Below are positions 58,079 through 64,000 of a stretch of 64,000 nt of DNA, one piece after another. Location: the NCBI RefSeq assembly GCF_900113685.1, contig NZ_FOQG01000005.1, positions 124,001 to 188,000 of the forward strand, in the 5' to 3' direction. The position numbers and the translations under genes were made by a program. Source of the DNA: Nocardioides psychrotolerans (GTDB lineage Bacteria; Actinomycetota; Actinomycetes; Propionibacteriales; Nocardioidaceae). Under the pieces are notes generated by a model. The model had not been told where the DNA came from. It searched no databases and saw nothing but the letters and a program-made list of their open reading frames with translations. Numbering within the stretch: the stretch's first letter is position 1; every line of letters begins with the position of its first letter.

Positions 58079-60427
58079 TCACGTGCGCGAGGCGACGGTC
58101 GCGACCACGAGCAGCACGGGCGTGTGTGCCACGAGCACGGCCAGAGCATGTCGCCCCACCGGGACCAGCACCCGACCGACCGTCGTGGCCAGCGGGCGCC
58201 ACCAGGTGCCCACCAGCACCGTGACCACGAGGGTGCTCGCCGCCACGAGCGCCACCCGACCGATCGGCACGTCGACGCCGGCGACGAGGTCCTGGTCGAG
58301 CGCGATGTCGTTGAGCCACAGCCCGCCGACCGCACCGGCGTACGCCGCGACGACGACGCAGACCAGGAGGGTGCCACGCTGCCCGCGCAACCATGTCGCC
58401 ACACCACGCCGATGGTGGCCGAGCACCAGGCCGTGCACGAAGAGCAGCTGCCAGGCGAGGGGGGGATAGGTGTCGGCGAACTGCGCCGGTGACCAGTCGG
58501 GGTGCCAGACCTGTCCGAGACCCCACAGCGCCCACGACAGGGAGAGCACCACCCACCAGAGACGTCGACGAAGCAGCGCGAGGACCAGGGGTGCCAGGAG
58601 TCCCAGGAGCACGAAGAGCCCCAGGATGCTGGTCACCCACGGACCGGTCTCCAGGAACAGCAGGCGTTGCGCGGCAGCCCAGGGGGTCGGGTAGTCGAAG
58701 AGGTGGTCGGCGTCGGGGAACAGCTCTCGCACCTGACCGGTGACCGGGTCGCGCAGCTGCATCAGGCGTCCGGCACGCACCCCGGGGACGAGGCTGACGA
58801 CGTAGACGGCGAGGGCGGTGAGGACGGCTGCCGCGTAGAGCCGGCCCACGCGTCGCAGGGAGCGCACGGCCGCCGAGGAGGCGATTGCCAGGCCGGAGAG
58901 CAGCACCAGCCCCTCTGCCACCGGGACGGCACCGAGCGCCGAGCCGGCGATCTCGTGGTAGCCCAGGACCACGGCGAGGTGACCGGCCACCACCACGAGG
59001 ACCAAGGCCCCGCGCACCAGGTCCAGCCGGAGGTCGCGTCCTGCCTCGTCCACCGGCCCCACGTCCGTCACCCGGGTCGTGGCGCGACCGGTCAGGAGTG
59101 CGAGCGCGAGCAGCAGCAGGAGCAGGAGGCCACCGATGCCGAGCCCGCGGACTGACGGGTCGGGGGTGACCCCGGCAGGCAGGTCGCTGCCGGCGACCGG
59201 GACGAAGGAACCGTCACCGTCGCGGACCGGGTCGTCGACGGCCGGAGTGACGGACTCGACCGGCTCGCTGACCGGGCCGAGGTCGATCGTGGACTCCTCG
59301 AGGTCGGCTCTGACGGCGGCCGCGATCTCGGGATCGGCGGTGACCCTCCAGTCCACCGCGAGGGTGTCGACCTCGGGCTCGATCCGGTCGACCTCGAGCC
59401 AGCTGATGAGCCCGATGAGAGGACGGTCCACCGCGCTGCCGAAGACCTGACGCCACCACGAGCGCTTCAGCTGCAGCTCCGTGGCTCCCCCGACGGCGGG
59501 GTTGTAGAGCGCGGAGGTCTGCACCAGCATCGGCCGGTCACCGGCCGCCGCGAAGCGGTCGTAGAAGGGACGCCCGTTGGTCCCCGGGGCGTAGCCCCAG
59601 GTCTCCGCGAGGCGTGCGTCGTACTCACCGGTCGGGACGACGTTGCTGTCGATGCCTTGGTCCTGGCCGAAGCGGTAGAGCGTCAGTCCCACCCAGTCGA
59701 CGACGTCGTCGCCGGGGAAGTAGGGGCCGTAGGGGTCGTCGCCGGGAGCCAGGCGGCCGTTCCCGTCGGTGTCCAGGGGCTCGACGTCGACCTCGTCGGG
59801 CAGCCCGATGTCGCCGTCGGCGCCCTGCTCCTCGCGGTAGGGGTAGCCCGAGCCGTAGACCGGGGACCAGACGGTCTCCACGTGGGGCGCCGTGGCGTCG
59901 AGTCCTTCGGCGAGCAGCCTGAAGGCTGCCTTGTAGGCGACCGCCTGCTGGCCCCACGGCTCCCACGAACCGTTCATCTCGGCTCCGAAGCGCGCGAGGA
60001 ACCAGGTGCCGAGCTCGTCGTGCAGCCCGTCGAGCAGGGAGCCGAGACCTTCGGCGTCCTCGGTCGAGAGCCCCTCGAGCGGCGTCCGTGGCTGGAGGTC
60101 CACGACCACGACCGCGCCCAGGGTCGCGATCGCGCGCACCTGGCGCTCGAGGAACACCTGGTCCTCGTTGCTGAGCGGGTAGTCGACCTGGAAGGTGAAG
60201 GACGACGGCGAGGCGCCGAGCGCGTCGGCGTAGTCCTGGGGGACCGCCGTCTCGATGTCGAGCTCCGGGCCGAACCACGGAGCGCCCGGCGCGGGCCTGG
60301 GCATCGTGTCCCCGGCCCCGGTCTCGCTGAGGGCAGAAGCTGGAGCAGGTAGGACGAGCAGCACGGCGAGCAGGGCACCCCCGGCTGCGACGGCCCCGGT
60401 CACCAGCGCAGGTCGGGACCTGGTCAC
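58079..60427 (-). CDS. GH26-like extracellular domain fused to OpgC-type acyltransferase
   Basis: 782 aa from GTG 60427, which overlaps the ATPase stop (GTGA) and exposes a clean signal peptide (LVTGAVAAGGALLAVLLVLPAPASA). Residues 45-375 are GH26-like with FGAEMNGSWEPWG (acid/base Glu150), VETVWSPV and a Ca-loop-like DTDGNGRLAPGDD. Where the nucleophile Glu should lie the sequence is MLVQTSALYNP, with no Glu. Residue 430 on is an OpgC-like membrane acyltransferase with about ten helices. The protein may bind or trim and acylate (for example succinylate) the polymer made by the GT2 in this operon (inference). Confidence 0.8.
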   Translation of the reverse strand: MTRSRPALVTGAVAAGGALLAVLLVLPAPASALSETGAGDTMPRPAPGAPWFGPELDIETAVPQDYADALGASPSSFTFQVDYPLSNEDQVFLERQVRAIATLGAVVVVDLQPRTPLEGLSTEDAEGLGSLLDGLHDELGTWFLARFGAEMNGSWEPWGQQAVAYKAAFRLLAEGLDATAPHVETVWSPVYGSGYPYREEQGADGDIGLPDEVDVEPLDTDGNGRLAPGDDPYGPYFPGDDVVDWVGLTLYRFGQDQGIDSNVVPTGEYDARLAETWGYAPGTNGRPFYDRFAAAGDRPMLVQTSALYNPAVGGATELQLKRSWWRQVFGSAVDRPLIGLISWLEVDRIEPEVDTLAVDWRVTADPEIAAAVRADLEESTIDLGPVSEPVESVTPAVDDPVRDGDGSFVPVAGSDLPAGVTPDPSVRGLGIGGLLLLLLLALALLTGRATTRVTDVGPVDEAGRDLRLDLVRGALVLVVVAGHLAVVLGYHEIAGSALGAVPVAEGLVLLSGLAIASSAAVRSLRRVGRLYAAAVLTALAVYVVSLVPGVRAGRLMQLRDPVTGQVRELFPDADHLFDYPTPWAAAQRLLFLETGPWVTSILGLFVLLGLLAPLVLALLRRRLWWVVLSLSWALWGLGQVWHPDWSPAQFADTYPPLAWQLLFVHGLVLGHHRRGVATWLRGQRGTLLVCVVVAAYAGAVGGLWLNDIALDQDLVAGVDVPIGRVALVAASTLVVTVLVGTWWRPLATTVGRVLVPVGRHALAVLVAHTPVLLVVATVASRT

Positions 60428-60894
60428 TCGCTCGCGCGTAGGCACAGGAGGTCCCACAGGTTGCGGCCGTCAGCACGCTCGTAGGACAGGTCATCGAGGG
60501 CAGCGGTGGCCAGGGCCAGCCCGCGCCCCGACTCGGCCAGCACGTCGGGCATGGCCACCCCGCTCAGGTCGAGCGCCGTCGGGAGGCCGTTGTCGCCCAG
60601 ATGGGCCATCAGCTGGGTGTCGGTGACGCCGATGACGATCTCGAAGCGACGGCCGTCCTGTCCGGGCACGTCGACGTGGTCGGCTGCGTAGGCGTGCTCG
60701 ACGACGTTCCCGAGGATCTCGATGACCGACATCTCGAAGCGGATCCGGTCGCGGTCGGAGATATCGGGGTTGCTGATCCAGAGGTGCTCGAGCATCGCGT
60801 GCACGAGATCCATGATCTCCGGGGTAGCAGGGGCCGAGAGCGACAACCGGTTCTCGAGGGCGATGACCGCGCGAGCGGGTCCGGGCTCAGTCAT
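60424..60894 (-). CDS. RsbW/anti-sigma-type HATPase (Ser kinase)
   Basis: 156 aa. GHKL ATPase of the serine-kinase class: N-box EILGNVVEHAY (residues 54-64), DNGLPTALDL, and ESGRGLALATAALDDLSYE as the lid and G-box. RsbW proteins phosphorylate a STAS antagonist on Ser. The gene overlaps the STAS gene by 8 nt, so the pair is made in step. The start is ATG 60894; ATG 60903 is an alternative. No sigma factor gene is adjacent, so the kinase's second target is unknown. Confidence 0.87.
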   Translation of the reverse strand: MTEPGPARAVIALENRLSLSAPATPEIMDLVHAMLEHLWISNPDISDRDRIRFEMSVIEILGNVVEHAYAADHVDVPGQDGRRFEIVIGVTDTQLMAHLGDNGLPTALDLSGVAMPDVLAESGRGLALATAALDDLSYERADGRNLWDLLCLRASE

Positions 60895-61222
60895 CGAAGG
60901 CACCGTCCACGGACTCGCGCGCCCGCAGCACTCGGTCGAGGTTGGTGAGCTCGAAGACCGTCATCACGGCGGGCGACACCCGGGCGATGCGGAGGTCCCC
61001 TCCGGCCTGGCGTGCGGACTTGAGGCCGCCGATGAGGGCCCCCAGGCCGGAGGAGTCCAGGAAGCTGGTCTCGCCCATGTCGACGACGATGCGCGTCGTC
61101 CCGGCGCTGACGAGCTCGGAGAGGATCTCCTTGAGCCGTCGGGCGGACACCATGTTGAGACGGCCCTCAGGTGTCACGACACCGACGCCGTCGTCTCGGG
61201 TGTGGACCGCGAACTCGATCAT
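60887..61222 (-). CDS. STAS-domain anti-sigma factor antagonist
   Basis: 111 aa, a single STAS domain: VVTPEGRLNMVSARRLKEIL, then ETSFLDSSGLGALIGGLKSA, which has the phospho-acceptor Ser in DSSG as in SpoIIAA and RsbV. In partner-switching systems the unphosphorylated STAS protein binds the RsbW-like kinase. ATG overlaps the GT2 stop (ATGA) and its own end overlaps the kinase gene. Start at 61222. Confidence 0.92.
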   Translation of the reverse strand: MIEFAVHTRDDGVGVVTPEGRLNMVSARRLKEILSELVSAGTTRIVVDMGETSFLDSSGLGALIGGLKSARQAGGDLRIARVSPAVMTVFELTNLDRVLRARESVDGAFDD

Positions 61223-63213
61223 GGTGCTCCTTGGTGGGTGGGACCGACACTGACGGTGGTGGGCGCAGGCTCGCTGGGGGCAACGTATCCCCGGTAGCGC
61301 GCCGCCTTGATGATGACGGAGAAGATCAGCAGGTCGAACACGACCCACACCATGTTGAAGAGGCTCCCCGGGATGTTGGCCTGTCCGGTCGCCATGCGGA
61401 CGGAGCCCGCGACGAGCGCTCCGACGAGCAGGCCCATCGCCCACAGCTGGGGACGGATCAGGTGCCATGCCGGGCCGGTGGGCTCCCGCTTGGTCTTCGG
61501 CGTGACGGCGAAGTCCAGGCTGCGGCCCAGGAAGACGTTGCCGAAGGCGGTCGTGAACGACGCGATCCACACCGGGAAGAGGGCGAGGGAGTACTGCTGA
61601 CCGCGCCAGGTCTTGCGTCCGTCCGCAACCACGAAGAACAAGAGCTGATTGATGATGAGGAACGGGATCAGCCGCACGAAGAACTCGGTGCTCAGGGCGT
61701 TGACCGGAAGCACGCCCAACGTGAGGTAGATGACCGGGGCAGCGATGTAGACCAGCGCGGCGAACCCGGACAGATAGCTCCACATCGTGGAGAAGTACAT
61801 CAACCGTTGGGCCAGGGTCAGGCCCCTTTGCGTCAGGGGGTTCTCCTTGAACAGCACCTGCACCGTGCCCTGGGCCCAGCGCAGGCGCTGGGTCAGCATC
61901 GTCTGGAGGTCCTCGGGAGCCAGGCCGGTGGCGAGGACCTCGTCGTGGTAGGCCGACCGCCAGCCCAGCGTGTGCAGCCGCATGCAGGTCGCCATGTCCT
62001 CGGTGACCGAGATGGTGGCCATCGGCATCACAGCCTGGGCCTCGTCACCCCGGTCGACGTCGATGGCGTTGACGAGGGCCTGCACGGTCTCCACCGCTCC
62101 TAGCGGCGACCAGTCGCGGTGGGCCATCTGCAGGAGGACGCTCTCGTCGACCGTGGCCAGTGCGAGGTCCGGATCTGCGCCGATGCCCTCGAGCTCCGCG
62201 ATGACGGCCAGGTCGGCCTGCAATGCCTCGAGGTCGGCGGCCACCAGGCCGCGACGGATGGCGGCCACCCGCTTCTGGAACGTGTAGGTCACGTCGAAGA
62301 GCGCACCACCCCTGGCCAGCTCACGGCGTGAGCACCCGATCTCGTGCAGGATCGCGTCGAGTGCCTCACGAGCCTCGGTCTCGTCCGGCTCCAGCGTCCT
62401 CCTCGCCGACCGGAGCACGGCGCGGGCGGTCTTGAGAGCCCGATGGACCCCGACCTCGACCTCACCCACGTAGCGCGACACACCCAGCTGCATCAGGGCC
62501 TCGCGACGGATGACGGCGTTGGAGCCGCAGAAGAAGGCGGAGTTCCACCCGTCCTTGCCCTGCTGGATCGGGCCGTAGAACAACGGGGCCTGGCTGCCGA
62601 GCGGGTCGTCCTCCGGCACGTTCGTGAAGTACTGAGGGGTCTGCACGAGCGCCATCCGCTCGTCGGTGAAGAAGCCCAGGGTGTGGTCGAGGATCTCGGG
62701 CTCGGGGATCATGTCGGCGTCGAGGATCAGCAGGAACTCACCCTCGGTGGTGAGCAGCGCGTTGTTGAGGTTGCCGGCCTTGGCATGGCGCGGCATGCCT
62801 GCCCACTCCGCCGACCGGGTGATCCACCCGATCCCCTCCGCCTCGGCGGCCGCTCGCATCTCGGGTCGGTTGCCGTCGTCGAGGATCCAGGTCTCGTGCG
62901 GGTAGGAGATCGCCTTGGCCGCGCGAGCCGTCGTCATCACGAGGTCGATGGGCTCGTTGTAGGTCGCGACGAAGACGTCGACGGTCAGCCCCGGCCCGGG
63001 CGGCGCGGGGGTGTCGCGCTCCTTGAGTCGCCACATGCCCAGGCCGAAGAGCAGCGAGTCGACGAGGCTGTAGGTCTCGGCCAGGACCAGGGGCACGGCG
63101 ATCCACCAGGCGTCCCAGTTGACCGAGAAAAGCCAGCGCCAGACGACGTAGTTGAGGCCCAGGATCGACGTCAGGACGACGACGAAACGGATCAGCAGCA
63201 GCCGACGACTCAC
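61219..63213 (-). CDS. Cellulose-synthase-like GT2 glycosyltransferase
   Basis: 664 aa from GTG 63213, overlapping the phosphatase stop (GTGA). Two N-terminal helices, then a processive GT2 domain: VATYNEP, LDDGNRP, LDADMIPEP, QTPQYF, SVTEDMATC and QRLRWAQG, i.e. DDG, DxD, TED and QxxRW, all needed for beta-glycan synthesis. About six helices follow. There is no PilZ domain at the C-terminus (residues 645-664 are a disordered tail). An insertion of roughly 155 residues (about 244-400), helical by eye, separates FFCGSNAVIRREAL from the TED motif and is not in BcsA as I know it. Product probably a beta-glucan-like polymer. Confidence 0.88.
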   Translation of the reverse strand: MSRRLLLIRFVVVLTSILGLNYVVWRWLFSVNWDAWWIAVPLVLAETYSLVDSLLFGLGMWRLKERDTPAPPGPGLTVDVFVATYNEPIDLVMTTARAAKAISYPHETWILDDGNRPEMRAAAEAEGIGWITRSAEWAGMPRHAKAGNLNNALLTTEGEFLLILDADMIPEPEILDHTLGFFTDERMALVQTPQYFTNVPEDDPLGSQAPLFYGPIQQGKDGWNSAFFCGSNAVIRREALMQLGVSRYVGEVEVGVHRALKTARAVLRSARRTLEPDETEAREALDAILHEIGCSRRELARGGALFDVTYTFQKRVAAIRRGLVAADLEALQADLAVIAELEGIGADPDLALATVDESVLLQMAHRDWSPLGAVETVQALVNAIDVDRGDEAQAVMPMATISVTEDMATCMRLHTLGWRSAYHDEVLATGLAPEDLQTMLTQRLRWAQGTVQVLFKENPLTQRGLTLAQRLMYFSTMWSYLSGFAALVYIAAPVIYLTLGVLPVNALSTEFFVRLIPFLIINQLLFFVVADGRKTWRGQQYSLALFPVWIASFTTAFGNVFLGRSLDFAVTPKTKREPTGPAWHLIRPQLWAMGLLVGALVAGSVRMATGQANIPGSLFNMVWVVFDLLIFSVIIKAARYRGYVAPSEPAPTTVSVGPTHQGAP

Positions 63214-64000
63214 CGAGCGTCTCCCGCCACCGGGGCTCGGAACACCGCCACGGCCGTGACGTCGTCCAACGCAGTTCGGTCCCGAGCCAGTCGAGCCACG
63301 AGCTCCAGCAGCGTGCCGACGTCGTCGGCCCTGCGCATCAGGGCGCCGACCTCGTGCCACCACTCGATGGGATCGTCGATGAGATCGAGGAGGCCGTCGC
63401 TGAAGACCAGCATCCGACTGCCCGGTTCGAGCGTGACCTGGTGCTCGCTCCAGTGGTCGTCGGGCAGGATGCCGAAGGGCCGGTCGACGCTGTCGAGACG
63501 CTGCTCGCTCCCGTCGCCGTGCACGAGCAGGCAGAGGCCGGCACCTGCGTCGACGTAACGAGTGAACCCGTCATCAAGGTCGATCGCCGCCTCGAAGAGC
63601 GTCACGAAGGACTCGGTGCGCTCGAGGTCGGGCAGCAGGCTGCGAGCCACCTGCGTGGCAGTGATCCCGAGGTCGACCCCGGCGGTGACGGCGGCGTTGG
63701 TGCTGCGGATCGCGGCGCGGACCCCCGCTCCCACCAGGGCTGCTCCCGTGCCCTTGCCCATCACGTCACCCAGCCCGAGGTGGACGACGCCGTTGGTGAC
63801 GCCGTAGTCGTAGAAGTCGCCGCCGACAGCGAGGGCGGGCAGGCAGAGCCCGTTGATCTCCCAGCCGCCGGTGCGCACGGCCCGGGCCGGGAGCATGGAG
63901 GCCTGCACGTGTCCGGCCTGCGACATCTCCGCCGAGGACACCAGCTCCTGCTCCGCCCAGGCCGCCATGTCGCGGAACGCGACGAGGAGGTCACCGTCGA
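63210..64000 (-). CDS. SpoIIE/RsbU-type PP2C phosphatase, N-terminus missing
   Basis: At least 263 residues; the frame is still open at the window end, so the start lies beyond 64000. The first residues visible (DGDLLVAFRDMAAWAEQELVSS) look like the end of a GAF sensor domain. The PP2C domain has GGDFYDYG, GDVMGKGTGAAL, DAGAGLCLLVHGDG, FSDGLLDLID and DDVTAVAVF, with the Asp metal ligands present. RsbU-type enzymes dephosphorylate the STAS partner. It heads the operon in this window; its stop overlaps the GT2 GTG. Confidence 0.9.
   Translation of the reverse strand, partial: DGDLLVAFRDMAAWAEQELVSSAEMSQAGHVQASMLPARAVRTGGWEINGLCLPALAVGGDFYDYGVTNGVVHLGLGDVMGKGTGAALVGAGVRAAIRSTNAAVTAGVDLGITATQVARSLLPDLERTESFVTLFEAAIDLDDGFTRYVDAGAGLCLLVHGDGSEQRLDSVDRPFGILPDDHWSEHQVTLEPGSRMLVFSDGLLDLIDDPIEWWHEVGALMRRADDVGTLLELVARLARDRTALDDVTAVAVFRAPVAGDAR

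Follow-up and report, generated by a model that had tools for sequence, protein, structure and literature searches.

What does a phosphatase/antagonist/kinase set do when its genes surround that of a polysaccharide synthase? Partner switching by such sets is best known as a form of sigma-factor control, and the question is raised by a five-gene operon in a stretch of 64,000 nucleotides from Nocardioides psychrotolerans (RefSeq assembly GCF_900113685.1, contig NZ_FOQG01000005.1, positions 124,001 to 188,000; hereafter, the window). All five genes lie on the minus strand and encode, in order of transcription, a phosphatase with GAF and SpoIIE-type PP2C domains, a GT2 cellulose-synthase-like membrane polymerase of 664 residues (61219..63213; Pfam, NCBIfam, and fold comparison), a STAS-domain protein of the anti-sigma-factor-antagonist type (60887..61222; Pfam and NCBIfam), an RsbW/SpoIIAB-type serine kinase with a HATPase_c_2 domain (60424..60894; Pfam), and a protein in which a GH26-like, probably secreted domain is joined to an OpgC-type acyltransferase with several membrane passes (58079..60427). 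The C-terminal part of the phosphatase occupies 63210..64000, as identified with Pfam and by reading the open reading frame (ORF) past the window edge; the whole gene spans 63210-~64475 (L005:5211-6476), and its N-terminal part lies outside the window. With gene ends taken from start codons of our choosing, neighboring genes overlap by 4, 4, 8, and 4 nucleotides, confirming the overlaps of 4-8 nucleotides given in a preliminary description of this DNA. With moderate confidence, and from sequence comparisons, we favor the view that the operon encodes a polysaccharide synthase carrying its own on-site phospho-switch, in which the STAS protein would be the partner of GT2 and the kinase would be docked on GT2.

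The identities first assigned to the phosphatase, GT2, STAS protein, and kinase were upheld, the best Pfam model of each scoring above its gathering cut-off. Thus, the phosphatase matched SpoIIE/PP2C (E 6.7e-26), the antagonist matched STAS (E 8.2e-19), and the kinase matched HATPase_c_2 (E 4.5e-9), while the GAF domain, originally entered with a question mark, was found at E 7.5e-12, also above its cut-off. When the kinase profile was compared with the PDB, the best match was RsbW (6m36). In the phosphatase, D203, D206, D220, D343, D387, and D388 (numbering of the first row) were invariant in 30/30 aligned PP2Cs, and we take these to be the metal-binding residues. In the STAS protein, D56, S57, and S58 were invariant in 30/30 aligned orthologs, and the putative phospho-acceptor Ser57 of the DSSG motif (codon 61052-61054) is presumably equivalent to SpoIIAA Ser58. 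The same held for kinase residues E59, N63, H67, G103, and G123-R124-G125 (30/30 orthologs), which we assume to be the N and G boxes. The set thus has the Ser in the STAS DSSG motif, the intact HATPase_c kinase boxes, and the SpoIIE-type PP2C Asp residues expected of an RsbU/V/W-type switch, and, judged by these alignments, the catalytic and phospho-acceptor residues of the switch proteins are intact.

The synthase at the center of this set was matched by GT2/cellulose-synthase Pfam models with E values down to 1.9e-20, and its closest solved fold was that of BcsA (9b8v, E 4e-28). D112-D113-G114, D165-A166-D167, T404-E405-D406, and Q442-R443-L444-R445-W446 were invariant in 31/31 rows; these DDG, DAD, TED, and QRLRW motifs are presumably the catalytic motifs of a BcsA-type GT2 core, and motifs and fold together place the protein in that class. 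Its score against NCBIfam CelA, 341.5 bits, lay below the 699.1-bit equivalog cut-off. The window GT2 shares the fold, catalytic motifs, and membrane architecture of BcsA but differs in having a helical insertion instead of a PilZ match and in falling on a separate branch of the tree. PilZ was not among the Pfam matches of 14 GT2s tested, including that of the window; in two further GT2s, the proteobacterial BcsA-type rows L138 and L142, it scored above and below the gathering score, respectively. The insertion, of ~150 residues, was placed by alignment and model at residues ~248-395 (62029..62472, minus strand), between the FFCGSNAV and TED motifs; it was absent from the four proteobacterial BcsA-type and the cyanobacterial GT2 relatives in the alignment. 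In the predicted GT2 model, helices run over residues 237-273, 279-300, and 305-344, and residues 341-368 are modeled with low confidence. In a quick GT2 tree, which leaves out L102 and L122 and from whose topology our statements on branching are taken, the STAS-linked GT2s formed their own branch apart from the four proteobacterial rows (support 100).

We then compared gene context across relatives, with loci picked by GT2 similarity alone, so that the context is an independent observation. PP2C, GT2, STAS, and kinase genes occurred together in 30 of 31 loci (the window and 30 relatives), and for this reason we do not regard the four-gene arrangement as a product of chance. The order of the window was found in 27 loci and GT2-STAS-KIN-PP2C in three, while in the remaining one (L055) the module lay elsewhere in the genome; the notion of an order private to this genome, which had been raised at the outset, was therefore rejected. 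Across 149 Nocardioidaceae genomes, 31 had the GT2 (profile E≤1e-60) and 32 had an orthologous STAS protein (profile E≤1e-34), corresponding to 31/31 genomes with GT2 versus 1/118 without it (Fisher 3e-31, kinship ignored). Among 199 Microbacteriaceae genomes, 36 had a GT2 match, comprising 32 with an uninterrupted full insertion and four in which the insertion region was missing; STAS (E≤1e-20) was detected in 43 genomes, namely in 32/32, 0/4, and 11/163 of those with the full insertion, with the insertion missing, and without GT2, respectively.

Linkage of this kind extended well beyond the two families. A scan of genome contigs for GT2 relatives returned at least 592 matches, of which 80 were kept as named loci; 16 of these were dropped for having less than 3 kb of flank, leaving 64 with 3 kb or more to either side. 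Of the 49 of these that bear the insertion, 36 had all three switch genes nearby and 3 had none; taken singly, STAS was near in 40, the kinase in 42, and PP2C in 38. In the 15 without it, which are cyanobacterial and BcsA-type, the corresponding numbers were 12 for STAS, 6 for the kinase, and 9 for PP2C. Among the matches listed, STAS-linked GT2 loci belonged to Actinomycetota, Cyanobacteriota, Chloroflexota (L112 and L118), and Spirochaetota (L116), the last three loci being metagenome-assembled. The insertion is also present in a Planctomycetota fragment (L122), whose short contig shows no module. A phylum-wide profile search (2/396 genomes, at most three candidates scored per genome) is not used here as a frequency. 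When full-insertion GT2s with an identical core were counted once, Ser57 was present in 100/100 linked STAS proteins, and a kinase gene lay within ~3 kb in 106/115 loci. Thirteen full-insertion loci, none cut by a contig end, had no linked STAS, and an orthologous STAS was found elsewhere in 10/10 of the genomes checked (G778 and G852 included; L076, L077, and L085 left out). In the eight of these genomes that we read, a kinase gene lay beside the distant STAS in all and a GT2 also in one. STAS loss in Curtobacterium, Arthrobacter, and G033 was hence rejected, with STAS present in every such genome checked (10/13 loci). Arthrobacter sp. ISL-30 (L087 and L094) has two related GT2 copies, one with STAS-KIN adjoining and one without, and the genome of L087 gave four STAS matches.

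Which of the switch proteins would touch the synthase is suggested by lineages in which the set has decayed. The same ~50 insertion residues (~321-372 in L005) were missing in six genomes, those of Microbacterium rhizomatis (L113), G865, G920, G969, G880, and G933. In 6/6 of these the kinase profile had no match at E≤1e-5; in the same search it matched 12/12 other genomes, five strongly (89-195 bits) and seven weakly (34-50 bits, embedded domains included). STAS position 57 was not Ser in any of the six, being W, A, A, and A in four and, as read by eye, P in the two in which STAS is fused. The STAS domain was nonetheless kept, adjacent to GT2 in four genomes and joined to the C-terminal end of GT2 in two Microbacteriaceae, G880 and G933 (Pfam STAS 26.4 and 23.0 bits, cut-off 22.6). 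The four insertion-missing Microbacteriaceae counted above are G865, G880, G920, and G933, whose STAS sequences fall short of the 1e-20 threshold, being degenerate and linked in two and fused in two. By alignment, then, kinase, phospho-serine, and insertion segment are jointly absent, with STAS retained. Since L113 lies inside a full-insertion clade (support 99) and the other five short-insertion GT2s group together elsewhere (100), two separate losses of the segment are likely. Because the segment (62098..62253, minus strand, by alignment) is missing together with the kinase, it is our best guess for a kinase-docking site. Moreover, because STAS is kept, or even fused, where the kinase is gone, and a mere kinase titrator would then be useless, the STAS domain itself may act on GT2.

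A second fusion joins GT2 to the other switch partner. In cyanobacterial STAS-linked GT2s, the first catalytic Asp motif is followed by a different helical stretch (from the L140 model and the sequences), which in five cyanobacterial loci (L132, L137, L139, L140, and L178) contains an RsbW-like domain. HATPase_c_2 scored above its gathering score in 5/5 of these kinase-fused GT2s, and the embedded domain of L140, when folded, matched SpoIIAB and RsbW structures. Within the stretches examined, 27 cyanobacterial loci comprised 14 with a separate kinase gene, 5 with an embedded kinase, and 8 with neither, so that a separate kinase gene was present in 14/22 unfused versus 0/5 fused loci. These counts were made with the actinobacterial KIN profile, plus KINcy matches on stand-alone ORFs also matched by KIN; the stretches of L132 and L139 end at a contig edge, and weakly matching RsbW-like proteins occur elsewhere in the genomes of L137 and L140. 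A STAS gene adjoins all five fused GT2s and has the motif NSSG rather than DSSG, NSSG being found in no other linked STAS. This GT2 was present in 11/194 cyanobacterial genomes (E≤1e-80), 2/11 with the embedded kinase. The fused GT2s stood at two places in the quick tree, which would fit either two gains or a single gain followed by losses or transfers. Because the kinase is embedded in GT2, phosphorylation may well happen on the enzyme, and, taken as sequence evidence, the two natural fusions suggest that GT2 is controlled directly.

Several other features of the cyanobacterial loci deserve mention. The actinobacterial insertion had been considered as a universal STAS site, an idea that we dropped given that GT2s from this phylum lack it and are still STAS-linked. 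In the fused loci L178 (9299-11383) and L140 (9449-11515), the PP2C lies opposite STAS and has ~690 residues, compared to ~380-405 in most unfused loci, the additional length being N-terminal. The Pseudanabaenaceae L124 and L133 have GT2-STAS pairs without a nearby kinase or PP2C; the STAS of L124 has DASG and hence no phospho-serine, and a weak kinase match occurs elsewhere in its genome.

We propose that these parts work as follows. GT2 would polymerize and export a polymer that, going by the BcsA-like fold of the model, may be beta-glucan-like, and the helical insertion between the catalytic motifs would take the place of the PilZ domain through which BcsA responds to cyclic dimeric GMP (c-di-GMP). 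Unphosphorylated STAS would bind GT2 and set its active state; here we infer both the binding in the window's proteins and the active form, the latter being in line with what is described for SypA and SiaC-SiaD. The RsbW-type kinase would dock on GT2, probably via insertion residues ~321-372, and phosphorylate STAS Ser57, upon which STAS would be released or inactivated and GT2 switched off. The GAF-PP2C phosphatase would sense a signal and remove the phosphate, thereby resetting the switch, and the GH26-like/OpgC protein would trim and acylate the polymer outside the cell. In short, slime production is probably under the direct on/off control of this switch.

The strongest competing explanation, to which we give perhaps a one-in-five standing, is that the kinase itself is the inhibitor and blocks GT2, with unphosphorylated STAS doing nothing more than pulling the kinase off, as in the RsbV/RsbW/sigma-B system. 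Such a scheme would accommodate the kinase domain embedded in GT2 in the five cyanobacterial loci, as well as Curtobacterium, where the GT2 operon retains a kinase gene and STAS lies elsewhere with a second kinase. However, a STAS protein without its phospho-serine is kept beside GT2, or fused to it, in kinase-less lineages, which would be pointless for a titrator, and a kinase built into GT2 cannot be pulled off.

Less probable again, and in our judgment distinctly unlikely, is that the PP2C/STAS/kinase set acts on a sigma factor encoded elsewhere, which on release would transcribe the polymer genes; the arrangement of the genes would then do no more than group those regulated together. The preliminary description had left the choice between direct control of the synthase by STAS phosphorylation and control of a distant sigma factor, an interpretation that is partly supported by our comparisons: they favor the direct option and weaken the other, which retains some ground in the existence of genomes with STAS and without GT2. 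The presence of all RsbU/V/W-type parts in intact form would suit sigma-factor control, as would modules without GT2. In 9/10 of the GT2-less Microbacteriaceae genomes read (of 11), and in the Nocardioidaceae genome G046, STAS, kinase, and PP2C genes lie together; in the tenth (L230), STAS and kinase lie at the very end of a contig. Yet near-perfect co-occurrence of STAS and GT2, together with the kinase-GT2 and STAS-GT2 fusions, speaks against a remote sigma target, which we regard as disfavored. The absence of a sigma-factor gene, as first reported, also held insofar as none was recognized by eye beside the window's operon, with no sigma profile run there or anywhere else. By translation reading, several of the GT2-less modules (L224-L233 and L188) adjoin succinyl-CoA-ligase-like or CDP-alcohol phosphatidyltransferase-like genes. 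In L233, a single ORF of 535 residues (L233:5769-7376) next to STAS was matched by both the kinase and PP2C profiles, and this kinase-phosphatase fusion is reminiscent of a dual SypE-like protein.

Direct control of GT2 has to be weighed against several observations. The STAS ortholog occurs without a GT2 match in 11/163 Microbacteriaceae genomes and in G046, so a PP2C/STAS/kinase set can serve something other than GT2, and L227 has an ORF resembling an extracytoplasmic function (ECF) sigma factor (L227:2623-3471, translation reading) at a distance of ~2.6 kb from its PP2C-STAS-KIN module, which has no GT2; the ORF is a possible sigma target of that module. Cyanobacterial GT2s are linked to STAS though they have no actinobacterial insertion. 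The single-chain model of the fused protein is of moderate confidence (predicted local distance difference test 73, predicted template modeling score 0.56), and the fusion of kinase to GT2 stands for one or two events and the shortened insertion for about two. Per genome, the searches scored only part of the initial candidates, up to 8 (Nocardioidaceae GT2), 31 (Nocardioidaceae STAS), 6 (Microbacteriaceae GT2), and 23 (Microbacteriaceae STAS), so some negatives may be false, and the cases from Chloroflexota, Spirochaetota, and Acidimicrobiales, which are metagenome-assembled, may reflect misbinning or transfer.

The last gene of the operon had been described as a GH26-OpgC fusion. Its OpgC half was substantiated by an OpgC_C domain at 58094..59038 (minus strand; Pfam E 6.5e-32, above gathering), whereas the GH26 half rests on relatives, since Pfam GH26 (Glyco_hydro_26) did not match the window protein at E≤0.01; no NCBIfam match was found for this protein. 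The profile of the GH26-like family shows weak similarity to GH26 structures (endoglucanase H, E 1.2e-4), a stand-alone homolog in L221 matches PF02156 at E 1.5e-10, and residues E142, M143, and N144 of the family were invariant in 23 rows. The GH26/OpgC gene follows the kinase gene, in the same orientation, in 20 of the 31 loci, and the order GT2-STAS-GH26 was seen in L220, L222, and L246. Just upstream of PP2C, weak GH26-like matches (22-34 bits) were found in 8/10 Mycobacteriales loci (L079, L081, L084, L088, L092, L093, L119, and L120), suggesting a GH26-type partner without OpgC there; in the Mycobacteriales and cyanobacterial loci read, there were weak matches only and no full GH26/OpgC match. 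A switch acting on export or modification, by way of the GH26-like/OpgC protein, or on some other membrane partner instead of GT2 is very improbable: the GH26/OpgC gene overlaps the kinase gene by 4 nucleotides and GH26-like proteins recur in the loci just named, but the gene does not follow the kinase in 11/31 loci, where the link between GT2 and STAS persists as it does in the Mycobacteriales and cyanobacterial loci, and both fusions involve GT2.

Just past the window, and divergent from the phosphatase gene, translation reading revealed an OmpR-type response regulator (L005:6598-7353, plus strand), followed by YrbE/Mce-like genes read as an Mce operon. The regulator is a possible transcriptional input to the operon.

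How does the proposed switch compare to known systems? It resembles RsbU/RsbV/RsbW and SpoIIE/SpoIIAA/SpoIIAB in that each of the three kinds of component is present, with its catalytic or phospho-acceptor positions conserved, and in the match of the embedded kinase domain to SpoIIAB and RsbW structures; it differs in that no sigma factor was seen in the operon and that kinase or STAS is fused to the enzyme in relatives. A further relative in design is SiaABCD, in which SiaA is a phosphatase, SiaB is a kinase, and SiaC has a STAS-like fold. The likeness lies in a phosphatase, a kinase, and a partner protein acting directly on an enzyme, although the target of SiaC is a diguanylate cyclase and the proposed target here is a polysaccharide synthase; the window PP2C matched the SiaA model weakly (E 1.7e-9, 36.8 bits, cut-off 700). 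In the SiaC-SiaD complex of Pseudomonas aeruginosa, the binding partner is described as activating the enzyme directly (PMC8457831), and the Sia pathway is described as a threonine phosphorylation pathway (PMC7647112).

The loose parallel first drawn was with Vibrio fischeri, where STAS and kinase control biofilm polysaccharide and where SypA is described as active when unphosphorylated, its target being unknown (PMC8256260, PMC4517449). In contrast to the present set, SypE is a dual kinase/phosphatase and the syp locus has 18 genes, and the passages on Syp do not mention a synthase that incorporates a kinase or STAS. In Nostoc punctiforme, the HmpUVW proteins are likewise a PP2C/STAS/kinase-type set linked to polysaccharide and motility, in which the STAS protein HmpV is the output on an undefined effector (PMC8256260, PMC6495340); unlike the genes here, hmpV (Npun_F5169) is, by locus tag, not adjacent to hmpU and hmpW (Npun_R5135/R5134) (PMC10581220). 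As far as the text of the open-licence PubMed Central literature was accessible, we found neither a GT2/STAS/kinase operon like this one nor a kinase-GT2 fusion described. A precedent for a STAS-glycosyltransferase fusion as such is all4160, another cyanobacterial glycosyltransferase, which according to a review carries a STAS domain at its N-terminus. A term search of the main text of a 2025 review of cyanobacterial cellulose returned none of STAS, anti-sigma, serine kinase, HATPase, or phosphatase.

Seen more broadly, we lean slightly toward the view that a branch of GT2 polymerases in four phyla is held by a phospho-regulated STAS protein, with the kinase docked on the enzyme or built into it, with no sigma factor, and independently of PilZ and c-di-GMP. 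The polysaccharide-linked exceptions to sigma-factor control, SypA and HmpV, are described as having an unknown output (PMC8256260), and the fusions reported here name a likely target. If true, the proposed switch would give a concrete idea of what SypA and HmpV may act on. It also suggests a mode of control for synthases without PilZ in Actinomycetota and Cyanobacteriota and would give a handle on slime and biofilm formation in these bacteria.

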